Origin: Streptomyces sp. NBC_01451
GTDB taxonomy: Bacteria > Actinomycetota > Actinomycetes > Streptomycetales > Streptomycetaceae
Reading direction: 5' to 3'
NCBI RefSeq assembly: GCF_036227485.1
Contig: NZ_CP109479.1
Location: forward strand, 992,001-1,056,000
DNA: 64,000 nt
Shown: piece after piece, positions 2,215 to 5,601 of the stretch
Layout: every line of letters starts with the position of its first letter
How positions within the stretch are numbered: the first letter of the stretch is position 1
The notes under the pieces: generated by a model
What the model saw: only the letters and a program-made list of their open reading frames with translations
Databases searched by the model: none
Told to the model about the DNA's origin: nothing
Translations under genes and position numbers: made by a program

Positions 2215-3378
2215 ATGCCGAACCCAGCAGACCGATCGGAGCGGCAGCGGCCCGGACCGGGACCGGGGCTGTCCGCGATCCGGTTCTCCGTGCTCGACCG
2301 GTCCCGTACCCGGGAGGGCCACCCGGATGCCGAGGCCCTGCGGGACACCGTCGCGCTGGCCCGGGAGGCGGAACGGCTCGGCTTCCACCGGTTCTGGGTC
2401 TCCGAGCACCACGGAGTGCCCGGGGTCGCCGGTTCCGCGCCCACCGTGCTGGCCGCGGCCGTGGCAGCAGCGACCCGTACGATCCGGGTCGGCACCGGCG
2501 GCGTCATGCTGCCGAATCACCAGCCCCTGGTGGTGGCCGAGCAGTTCGGTGTCCTGGAGTCCCTGTTCCCGGGCCGGATCGACATGGGCCTCGGCCGTTC
2601 GGTCGGCTTCACCGACGGGGTACGCCGGGCGCTGGGCCGCGACAAGGACGTGGCCGGGGACTTCGCGGCCCAGCTCGACGAACTGCTCGGCTGGTTCGAC
2701 GGCACCTCCCCGACGGGGGTGCGCGCCCGCCCCGCCACCCGTGCCTCCGGGGGGATCTCCGTGCCTCCCTTCGTGCTCGCCATGGGCGAGGGCGCCGAGA
2801 TCGCCGCCCGGGCGGGCCTGCCCATGGTGATCGGCGACCTGCGCTCCCGCGAGCGGATGCTGCGCGGCATCGACACCTACCGTGCCGCTTTCCGGCCCTC
2901 GGCCTGGGCGGGCGAGCCGTACGTCGTCGTCTCGGGGACGGTCGCGGTGGCCGCCACCGCGGAGGAGGCCCGGCGGCTTCTGATCCCCGAGGCCTGGTCG
3001 ATGGCGTACTCCCGCACGCACGGCACGTTCCCGCCGCTGCCGCCCGCCGAGCGGGTCGGGTCCCGGACGATGACCGCCAAGGAGCGCGGCTTCTACGAGT
3101 CCGGGCTCGGCGGGCACATCGCCGGCACCGAGGAGCAGGTCGCCCACGAGCTGGAGACCGTGCTGAAGGAGACGGGGGCACAGGAACTGCTGGTCACCAC
3201 CAGCACCTACGACCGGGCGGCGCTGCTGGACTCGTACCGGCGGCTCGCCCGGATCACCGGCCTGGTGGCGCCCCGCTCCACGTGGCCCGCCGGCGGGGGC
3301 GGTCTCAGAACAGCGCCGTCACGGCCTGCTGCACGGCGGTCGCCGCACCCGCCAGAGCCGCCACGGACCGGCCCATGA
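2215..3378 (+). CDS. LLM-class (luciferase-like) flavin-dependent oxidoreductase
   Basis: 387 residues from ATG at 2215, with GGAG six nt upstream. The bacterial-luciferase-like fold is shown by [18 protein letters not shown], the RFWVSEHHG motif near residue 60, [22 protein letters not shown] and [11 protein letters not shown]. Such enzymes use FMN or F420 in oxidation or monooxygenation of small substrates in the cytoplasm. The last ~45 residues, after [15 protein letters not shown], are Pro/Arg-rich and run 74 nt into the end of the convergent gene at 3305. This tail is probably non-conserved. A natural substrate cannot be proposed. Confidence 0.85.
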
Positions 3379-3712
3379 GACCGATCGTGTCGGCCGCGCC
3401 CTCAAGGGTGTCGCGCCGGTCCGCGGGGTTGTCGAGAGCGCCCTCGATGCGGGCGGCCGCGCGCAGCCCGGCATCCCGGTCCTCGCCGGCGCCGAGCCGG
3501 GACAGGGCGTCCCGGAACTCCCTGAGGCTCGCCCGGACCTCCGCGACCGCCCGGTCGTCCCCCGGGAGTGACACCGTTTGGCTGACCCCGCTCACGTCTC
3601 CTCCCGCGACTGTCGACTGGATGGTGTTGTTGTTGCCCGCCTTCACGTTCGACTCGACCTGTCGCCGGCCTTCGCCGCTCCTCCAGCCGCCCTCGCGCCG
3701 AAATCGGTTCAT
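3305..3712 (-). CDS. Small helical protein with N-terminal amyloid-like NN-IQ-AGGD motif
   Basis: 135 residues. The ATG overlaps the stop of the upstream gene (ATGA, 3709-3712) and has its own AAGGGGGA ribosome site, so the two are translationally coupled. Residues 25-45 read AGNNNTIQSTVAGGDVSGVSQ, which matches the C-terminal motif of the upstream membrane protein (AG-NN-IQ--V-AG-D--G-SQ). The rest, residues 55-135, is predicted alpha-helical and ends in an Ala/Val-rich helix ([20 protein letters not shown]). No known domain was recognised. The shared low-complexity Asn/Gln/Gly motif recalls RHIM-like or bacterial amyloid signalling motifs that let paired proteins co-assemble; that is an inference. 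It overlaps the end of the convergent oxidoreductase gene. Confidence 0.6.
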   Translation of the reverse strand: MNRFRREGGWRSGEGRRQVESNVKAGNNNTIQSTVAGGDVSGVSQTVSLPGDDRAVAEVRASLREFRDALSRLGAGEDRDAGLRAAARIEGALDNPADRRDTLEGAADTIGLMGRSVAALAGAATAVQQAVTALF

Positions 3713-5601
3713 TTCTCGTCCCCCTTCTCTGTCGCCCTGCCGCTCTGGTCCCGGTCCGCGGGGCGGCTCGGCTGCCGGTCCTGCGAAGTGTCCGGGCCCT
3801 GACTCGTGCCGTGTGCGTCCCGGCCCGCCGTCACCGCCTGGATGATGTTGTTGTCGCCGGCGTGGATCACCGTCATGATCTTCTGCACCTGGCTCTTGAA
3901 CTCCGTGATGTCGACTCCCTTGTGGTCGAGGAATTCCTCGACCGTGGAGAACATGGACGACTGAACGATCGTCACATGCCTCACGGCGTCCTCGGCTACG
4001 TGCATGTCTCCTGTGTAGACGGGCGAGTAGCGCTCTCTCAGGCTTGTGGGCATCGGCCGCTTCGGGACTTCCGCCAGCTGCTCGCCCGGCCCCGTCCCCT
4101 CCCTCTCGCGTGCCCACCACCTGAGGAAGTGCCACCAGCCGAGCACCAGGACGGCGAGATCGCCCACGGCCTGAACGGGGATCTGCGCGAAGGTGCTGAT
4201 TCTGCGCAGTACCTCGGGATCCACGGCCTCCTCGACATCGTCGAAGAGCGGCGGCAGGACATGGGGACGCACGACGAAGTGCAGTTCCTGCCCCTCGATC
4301 ACCGCCGACGCCAGCACAGTGATGACCAACTGACCGGACCACGTGCGGACTTGCGCGGACAGGTACTCGCGGACGACGGTCCCGGAATCACTCTCGTCCG
4401 GTGCCCGCCCCCACAGGGCGTGCTCGTCGGCGTCGGCACCGGAGTGATTCCTCGGCAGGCGGGCCCAGTGCCGGGACGGCCCGCCCCGGACGTACCGGAC
4501 ATCGCATTCGAGCGGGCGGAAGGGCGGCTCGGCGATCCGCAGATCCTCCAGGTCCTCGCTCACGGCCGAGAGCAGCTCGTCGGTGTCGAAGGCAACGAAG
4601 TCCTTGCGGATCTCCTCGTCCTCGTCGTCCTTCTCGCCCTGCAGCTTGATACTGATCGTGGACCGGTGCCAGAGGGCGTTGCCGGCTCCGATGAAACGCC
4701 AGTAGCCCGCGTGGAGTTCGTAGGGAAGGGCGTCGCCGGACTGCGCGCGTCCGATCGCGGCGATCCGGCCGCGCAGCCTCGGTCCCGTCCACGGATCGCG
4801 GCCACCCCGGTCGCAGACCAGGGCGTAGACGACCGCGACGAGCCGGTCCATGACCCGCACACCCAGGTAGGCCAGCGCGGACAGTTCAACCGCCGCCAGG
4901 GCCTCCCCGGCCACCCGGCTCATGGGACGGAGCGTCATCACCAGCACGGGAAGCAGGACCACGACGAGGGCGCCGGCCCATGCCGGGCTGAACCTGCGTC
5001 GCCTTGGTCCGGTACGCCACAGCGTGCGCCGAGGGGGGCGGGCGACCAGCATCGCGAGCGCGGCCGTGGAAGCCCACAGAGCCACACCGAGCGGGAAGCG
5101 GTACGCGATCCAGCCCAGGACGACCGCGAGCACCACGCGGCGCACCCGCCACTGCCGGCGTGCGGCGAGGCAGTGCGCGAGGACAGGGCCGAGATCGAAG
5201 CCGTAGGAGGGCACCACGCGTAGTCGCGACAGGAGAATCTGCCCGATCGCCCACCTGGCGAGCGGCTCGCCCAGCGGAGGGCAGGTCGTGTCCTCCGGCT
5301 CCCATCGGGGACGTCGGGCGGCCAGGAGCGCACGCACCGAGGCGAGACCCCACCCATGAGTCGCGATGTGCCGCGATGCCGCTCTGACCGGCTCCAGCCG
5401 ATCGGGACGACTGTGCGCGGCGGCACACAGTCGCCTGGTCGCCTCGGTGGGCGGAGTGCGCTGTGCCTTCTTCGCCACCGGTTCGGCTCTGGGCGCATCG
5501 GACTCCGTTACCGGTGTGGCCGCCGCGGCCGGTGCGGCGCCCGCGCGGAGCGAGATGGCTTGGAAATAGCGTTCTCGCCGTTGCTGCGTGGAAGTTCCCA
5601 C
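3709..5601 (-). CDS. Membrane protein of unknown function with C-terminal amyloid-like motif
   Basis: 630 residues from the GTG at 5599-5601, chosen because GGGGGAGGA lies six to seven nt upstream. An in-frame GTG at 5676 would add 25 residues but lacks a ribosome site. Residues 1-150 are Ala/Arg-rich and soluble. Several hydrophobic segments follow (VVLAVVLGWIAYRFPLGVAL, LWASTAALAMLVA, AGALVVVLLPVLVMTL, LSALAYLGVRVMDRLVAVVYAL). A long soluble middle region and another short hydrophobic stretch near QAVGDLAVLVLGWWHFLRWW come next. Residues about 580-602 (HAGDNNIIQAVTAGRDAHG) repeat the motif of the following gene. It probably acts at the inner membrane with that partner. No enzymatic motif was recognised. 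Confidence 0.6.
   Translation of the reverse strand: MGTSTQQRRERYFQAISLRAGAAPAAAATPVTESDAPRAEPVAKKAQRTPPTEATRRLCAAAHSRPDRLEPVRAASRHIATHGWGLASVRALLAARRPRWEPEDTTCPPLGEPLARWAIGQILLSRLRVVPSYGFDLGPVLAHCLAARRQWRVRRVVLAVVLGWIAYRFPLGVALWASTAALAMLVARPPRRTLWRTGPRRRRFSPAWAGALVVVLLPVLVMTLRPMSRVAGEALAAVELSALAYLGVRVMDRLVAVVYALVCDRGGRDPWTGPRLRGRIAAIGRAQSGDALPYELHAGYWRFIGAGNALWHRSTISIKLQGEKDDEDEEIRKDFVAFDTDELLSAVSEDLEDLRIAEPPFRPLECDVRYVRGGPSRHWARLPRNHSGADADEHALWGRAPDESDSGTVVREYLSAQVRTWSGQLVITVLASAVIEGQELHFVVRPHVLPPLFDDVEEAVDPEVLRRISTFAQIPVQAVGDLAVLVLGWWHFLRWWAREREGTGPGEQLAEVPKRPMPTSLRERYSPVYTGDMHVAEDAVRHVTIVQSSMFSTVEEFLDHKGVDITEFKSQVQKIMTVIHAGDNNIIQAVTAGRDAHGTSQGPDTSQDRQPSRPADRDQSGRATEKGDEK

Follow-up and report, generated by a model that had tools for sequence, protein, structure and literature searches.

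A membrane protein and its downstream partner carry matched short motifs in Streptomyces: one cassette of a diverse, candidate motif-coupled signalling family

The window analysed here is a 64,000-nucleotide stretch of Streptomyces sp. NBC_01451 (contig NZ_CP109479.1, positions 992,001 to 1,056,000). It contains two coupled genes, a large one encoding a predicted membrane protein and a small one encoding its downstream partner. The reading we favour, and hold to be rather probable, is that this pair is a cassette of a large actinobacterial two-gene signalling family, in which a tag at the tail of a sensor templates or recruits a correspondingly tagged effector. The initial annotation had singled out the pair for an amyloid-like motif shared by its two proteins. 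The pair is real, but it is no solitary case: it belongs to a diverse family, and homologues place the large protein among Streptomyces membrane proteins that are present in multiple copies. A short shared, co-evolving motif does link the membrane protein with the product of the next gene, as had been proposed. At the level of sequence, pairing, coupling, matched divergence, and effector swapping are all established.

The two window motifs lie in both proteins at the residues first reported, and the genes are coupled by the overlapping ATGA described there (Table 1). Local alignment gives 12 identical residues of 21, with the pattern AG-NN-IQ---AG-D--G-SQ; the claimed pattern thus stands except for its V, which does not align. 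The local score of the pair, 63, was reached by none of 20,000 shuffles of the large-protein tail; when the whole large protein was shuffled, 2 of 2000 trials reached it. The latter figure makes the single pair, taken by itself, suggestive, not conclusive. It is the many-cassette family, as compared below, that makes the window match decisive.

The paralogue P0032 served as the query for family members in 150 Streptomyces genomes and gave matches in 139 of them at E ≤ 1e-5, motif-less paralogues counted in. Sixty regions were taken from those genomes (59 of the places listed, chosen for apparent diversity, and the unrelated L129); five places on the list were left out for an in-frame stop. A class-wide search found the family in 14 of 118 genomes and 6 of 72 genera, and a phylum-wide search in 10 of 198 genomes and 3 of 147 genera, the genus itself and its motif-less paralogues being counted in both. 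Public contigs were a further source of loci. Removing one locus without a family member (L129) and ten duplicates from 128 loci left 117 distinct large genes, namely ten motif-less core paralogues and 107 others, 100 of which have an accepted downstream partner.

Partners were accepted by position and codon GC content only, without use of the motif: the first one that starts no more than 60 bases before or 130 bases after the large stop was taken. This rule also accepts some open reading frame after six of the ten core paralogues, none of them partner-like by eye, and is therefore not specific. Third-position GC alone gave wrong frames in a few loci and was dropped as a partner rule before any statistic, and DUF5955 was dropped as a cassette finder because most matches over its cut-off were a separate gene. 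With automatic starts, the gap between the genes is -3 (a four-base overlap) in 33 of the 100 cassettes, the window's included, and at most 20 bases in 83, figures that are conditional on the start limits of the rule and hence approximate. From the last hydrophobic stretch to the C-terminus of the large protein, the median distance over the 100 cassettes is 377 residues.

Each large tail was scored against the first 80 residues (the head) of a partner. The mean score with the own partner is 74.2, compared with 32.1 ± 1.2 (maximum 37.5) in 20,000 permutations over the 100 cassettes. When permutation is confined to similar large proteins, the difference persists (74.8 vs 56.5 ± 1.5, maximum 63.7; 10,000 permutations, 86 cassettes). 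The own partner outscores every partner of large proteins less than 50% identical in 83 cassettes, ranks first overall in 43, and is among the top five in 83. With one cassette kept per cluster at 50% identity, it comes first in 21 of 25 clusters, the others being those of L063, L066, L139, and L162. Among pairs of cassettes whose bodies are 40-85% identical, 760 of 818 have a higher summed score with cognate than with swapped partners, although these pairs are not independent. Tail shuffling reached the own score in 0 of 300 trials in 93 of the 100 cassettes. The placement proposed for the window, C-terminal in one protein and N-terminal in the other, is general: when the two full-length proteins of a cassette are aligned, the best match falls in the tail and the partner N-terminus in 94 cassettes. 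Seven large genes outside the core group lack an accepted partner; among them, L107 and L136 do have a match by eye, and L009 is fused.

The bodies behind the partner tags are of several kinds. Scans were made of 101 partners (those of the 100 cassettes and of L136) with Pfam at E ≤ 0.01 and PADLOC at E ≤ 0.001. Pfam recognised DUF5955 in 22, the CAP12/Pycsar TIR family (CAP12-PCTIR_TIR, PF10137) in 10, PNP_UDP_1 in 5, and EAD1 in 2. The best TIR match has an E-value of 4.5e-28, and two partners pass the family's cut-off with 90.4 and 96.8 bits. PADLOC models matched were PDC-S35 (10 partners), PDC-M60C (5), a PN-superfamily effector model (5), and PDC-M14B (9); the TIR and nucleosidase partners also match effector or candidate defence models. 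Ten partners picked by an HGRD or Glu pattern, the same number as the Pfam TIR matches, all have HGRD and NVLIELG, the latter being what we take to be the catalytic-Glu region. One nucleosidase partner matched MTA/SAH nucleosidases of known structure at 5.7e-6, and the PDB gave nothing at E ≤ 0.01 for one TIR partner. A terminal hydrophobic stretch occurs in 56 of 85 partners, the window's included, once TIR and nucleosidase proteins are set aside and EAD1 proteins are not (shuffles: mean 5.4, maximum 11). It occurs in none of the ten TIR and none of the five nucleosidase partners. The suggestion that the small protein occupies an effector or adaptor position is supported, and second proteins elsewhere in the family include immune-type enzymes.

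The N-termini of the large proteins also vary. Among 31 scanned, an FHA match (E 2.3e-13) and a zinc-ribbon match (E 0.0015), assigned by eye to L058 and L050, respectively, may be input domains. A profile of the large family gave only weak matches to known structures, the best (E 0.0067) being a designed coiled coil. A profile of the small family matched helical and designed proteins, at best a chain of SH3KBP1 (2.5e-5), presumably a coiled coil; these matches were read as composition. L066 departs from the rule: the protein encoded downstream is another membrane protein (354 residues), and it has no matching motif. Outside the genus but within its class, a partner at L136:1006-1494 (-) carries EAD1 (E 1e-13) behind a matching tag and would connect its cassette to the EAD network. 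A DUF5955 match is present in 134 of the 150 Streptomyces genomes at E ≤ 0.01, and most genomes of the genus have a highly conserved, high-scoring DUF5955 gene. At L002, the single such locus whose open reading frames were examined, no large partner or motif was seen beside it.

Close relatives of the window pair were sought in 101 genomes of its genus, its own included, with only the best candidates per genome scored. A large protein like that of the window (E ≤ 1e-30) was found in seven, and in all seven, the window's own among them, a neighbouring partner with a matching motif was read by eye. Neither a pair split apart nor a motif lost from one partner, two of the outcomes that the initial annotation had named as telling against it, was seen among these relatives. 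Protein searches at E ≤ 0.001 gave at least 16 matches for the large protein (among the best 8000 candidates) and 14 for the small one, the queries themselves included. By eye, the window form of the motif is kept in 12 of the 15 other large proteins, the exceptions being disrupted at the motif (P0006), variant (P0017), or furnished with a different tail (P0018). A recognisable form is present in 12 of the 13 other small proteins; P0030 starts after the motif. The gene order is the same on four public contigs (L005-L008). Both genes form one reading frame in Streptomyces lycii (L009) and in P0017 (Streptomyces sp. NPDC048845), and unfused relatives of this fused subtype (L165-L168) have separate, matching genes.

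The genome of the window holds two more pairs of the same family. At about 5.017 Mb of G000:C1 (L010/L041), the large protein has the tail NQGLIQQGGTSIIGNQAIGPGSSA and its partner the head NNGLVINGGTHYVGNQAIGHRAQA. At about 3.502 Mb (L115), the tail contains DNSTFAVGSHATA and the head is HSTFAIGSHARA. One genome thus has three pairs with three different motifs, each matched within its pair. One more member of the family in this genome, the fourth, lies at about 8.124 Mb (L158) and is without the motif. It is among the core paralogues of the large protein (L124, L125, L142-L144, L148-L150, L152, and L158), which end in KAD(V/S/T)YDA and lack the motif; by eye, none of these ten has a matching partner downstream.

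The tags are short and of skewed composition. Their aligned length has a median of 27 residues (range 7-57), with 18.7% Gly and 10.6% Asn, and Leu, Arg, Glu, and Pro are depleted relative to the body. The pattern G.GD.N.[VI] occurs in 11 of the 100 tails and 4 of the 100 heads, as against a mean of 0.04 and a maximum of 1 in shuffled tails; the cassettes that have it are in part related to one another. It resembles the fungal GDQN pattern (PMC12261475). Seven partners (L065, L071, L076, L083, L110, L133, and L139) have a second motif copy, and both copies resemble the single tail of the large protein. Tag make-up and the G.GD.N.[VI] pattern fit an amyloid signalling motif as compatible features, not as proof.

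The features of the window pair are collected in Table 1. The GTG start of the large gene was picked from homologues and the upstream sequence GGGGGAGG. The membrane segments reported by the initial annotation are real by hydropathy (threshold 1.4), but their count is uncertain: extra hydrophobic stretches at residues 450-469 and 493-514 (655-residue numbering) leave the topology of the large protein uncertain. A VirD1-like NCBIfam match (18.1 bits vs a cut-off of 173) was disregarded.

Table 1. Features of the motif-matched gene pair (positions in the window)
Feature	Position	Strand	Details and basis
Large gene	3709..5601	-	630 residues from GTG at 5601; open reading frame open to 5676
Layout of large gene		-	N-terminal region, then hydrophobic segments, then a long C-terminal region with the motif near its end; basis includes the family alignment
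Small gene	3305..3712	-	135 residues; N-terminal motif, probably helical region, hydrophobic C-terminus
ATGA stop/start overlap of both genes	3709..3712	-	Sequence
Motif copy, large protein	3799..3861	-	Residues 581-601, AGDNNIIQAVTAGRDAHGTSQ
Motif copy, small protein	3578..3640	-	Residues 25-45, AGNNNTIQSTVAGGDVSGVSQ
Main hydrophobic (predicted transmembrane) region, large protein	4828..5139	-	Residues 180-283 (655-residue numbering); hydropathy
Hydrophobic C-terminal stretch, small protein	3308..3364	-	Residues 117-135

In the proposed mechanism, the membrane protein encoded by the first gene probably senses a disturbance. Its C-terminal region would present the short Gly/Asn-rich tag in which it ends, and the partner would answer with the cognate tag at its start. 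A trigger would cluster the tags of the membrane protein, and the clustered tags would nucleate those of the partner; the likeliest route is cross-beta templating of the HET-s, RHIM, and BASS kind. The partner would thereby be gathered and activated at the membrane. A TIR or nucleosidase partner could then destroy nicotinamide adenine dinucleotide (NAD) or nucleotides, whereas a small partner with a hydrophobic C-terminus, the type found in the window, might enter the membrane, perturb it, or serve as an adaptor. Tags that differ between cassettes and match within them would keep parallel modules in one cell insulated.

Several observations weigh against this mechanism and against the favoured reading as a whole. 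Sensing, trigger, templating, the cross-beta fold, and killing or any other outcome are all steps that we infer, and the reading is built on sequence comparison. The large window protein has no Pfam match, and hence no ligand-sensing domain was recognised in it. The small one scores 14.5 bits with DUF5955 (PF19380), below the 27.1-bit cut-off. An hhalign comparison with core DUF5955 gave a probability of 4%, and on these two figures a DUF5955 identity was dropped; the own-genome paralogue P0033 does pass the cut-off (28.8 bits). The automatically chosen partners of L066 and L162 share no motif, and by eye L062, L087, and L101 have no matching partner. None was seen for L161, whose match begins 360 bases from the end of its contig. 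The match is weaker by shuffling, and visible by eye, in L056 (own score reached in 26 of 300), L061 (61), L063 (1), L068 (1), and L104 (2). Inside the fusion P0017, it was reached by 172 of 5000 shuffles, weak alone, and the fusion was dropped as stand-alone proof. The RHIM tetrad, (I/V)Q(V/I/L/C)G, occurs in 0 of 100 tails and 1 of 100 heads and is absent from both window motifs. Finally, same-codon use at identical residues is 0.661 in own pairs, compared with 0.639 where related proteins are mismatched and align well, both higher than the 0.546 expected from large-gene codon usage, so some old shared DNA ancestry may remain.

This excess of same-codon use, the adjacency of the two copies, and the fused relatives L009 and P0017 would suit a different origin, in which the similarity has no function and was left behind by duplication of DNA or by gene conversion between neighbours. 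Such an origin is already disfavoured, and we give it very little credence. Same-codon use is barely higher in own than in mismatched pairs, so that neither recent conversion nor recent duplication is supported as the chief source of the cognate match. Moreover, matched divergence holds over 25 clusters, and the tag is retained when the partner domain is swapped. The same swapping bears on a second explanation, that the pair serves development or membrane organisation and not immunity, with the small protein as a structural or regulatory subunit. The presence of the family in 139 of 150 genomes (motif-less paralogues again counted in) and the predominance of small partners with no recognised enzyme domain are what such a module would lead one to expect. 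Even so, it seems rather improbable, given that elsewhere TIR, nucleosidase, and EAD1 proteins take the place of the small partner, that the TIR and nucleosidase partners match PADLOC effector or candidate defence models, and that the window subtype is patchy, in 7 of 101 genomes.

The tag might instead be a short folded docking element, such as a beta zipper or solenoid rung, that joins the two proteins in a defined hetero-complex with no amyloid or templating. The evidence speaks for specific pairing only, not for fibres, and the missing RHIM tetrad also agrees with docking. We consider this unlikely, if well short of negligible: the median length of 27 residues and the Gly and Asn content fit amyloid signalling motifs, the second motif copy in seven partners recalls r1 and r2 of HET-s, and the pattern in 11 of 100 tails is like fungal GDQN (PMC12261475).

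If tag-directed recruitment of an effector, the reading preferred here, is correct, bacterial amyloid-type signalling is not bound to NLRs, and a membrane family would serve as receptor, with immune enzymes as some of its effectors. A wider proposal, on which we are evenly divided, is that filamentous actinobacteria contain a network of NLR-free membrane signalosomes, each with a prion-like tag for a dedicated effector (TIR, nucleosidase, or membrane-active peptide) and insulated from the others within the genome. The family would supply natural pairs of cognate tags in about two dozen clusters (25 at 50% identity), at least three of them in one genome. With so many natural pairs, specificity among several short signalling motifs in one cell becomes directly testable. 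The cassettes also open a way to study protein families, common across Streptomyces, that have no assigned function.

Among known systems, the closest plan is that of the BASS pairs of Bell effectors and NLRs, in which the N-terminal motif is on the NLR (PMC7889193; PMC8086366). The family shares with BASS adjacent or overlapping genes, a matched motif that is C-terminal in the first type of protein and N-terminal in the second, several motif families, an occurrence in actinobacteria, and the presence of TIR proteins. Unlike in BASS, the C-terminal motif is on a multi-pass membrane protein, of 630 residues in the window where the Bell domain is small, and the N-terminal motif is on a putative effector (TIR or nucleosidase) or a small protein, so that the roles are apparently reversed. 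No NACHT or NB-ARC was found in the 101 partners or the 31 large proteins (Pfam, E ≤ 0.01; nine and six families listed, respectively). The large protein is without a Pfam match, no Bell profile having been searched by name. It is the missing NLR that sets the family apart from BASS.

The likeness to RHIM, HET-s, and BASS claimed by the initial annotation thus stands for the two-ended plan of matched motifs and fails for the RHIM tetrad and the NLR. As in RHIM and HET-s systems, a short homotypic motif joins receptor and effector. The fungal HET-s effector has two motif repeats, r1 and r2 (PMC7889193; PMC8086366), and some partners here likewise have two copies. A RHIM reading was ruled out by the tetrad test, and neither window protein matched the HET-s, sigma, PP, or RHIM Pfam families (limit E 10, with HMMER filters dropping most matches above about 0.1).

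Two further systems are related in logic. EADs are small, mostly helical domains whose adjacent copies are most alike (Kaur et al. 2020; PMC7159879). In both EAD systems and the present family, a homotypic adaptor is found on a core and on the effector encoded by the next gene, adjacent copies are the most alike, and TIR and nucleoside phosphorylase domains are the cargo. Here, however, the linker is a Gly/Asn-rich motif of about 20-30 residues in place of a helical domain, and EAD1 occurs only as cargo, in 2 of the 101 partners and none of the 31 large proteins. The EACC1 system (System 4) has one transmembrane helix and frequently a caspase partner (PMC7159879). The present cassettes resemble it in having two genes with the membrane component first, an actinobacterial distribution, and variable effectors, and differ in having several hydrophobic segments. 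No EACC1 or caspase family was listed by Pfam, which presumably includes EACC1, for the window pair, the 101 partners, or the 31 large proteins.

The initial annotation had put the pair forward as its best candidate for an undescribed system. In agreement with this, no description of such pairs was met in the open-licence PMC literature, preprints not covered, which is weak evidence of absence, and the family is apparently undescribed. On the comparisons drawn here, it is a case of motif-coupled effector signalling outside the BASS, RHIM, EAD, and EACC1 families, and we read it as an NLR-free, membrane-anchored relative of the bacterial amyloid-signalling pairs.

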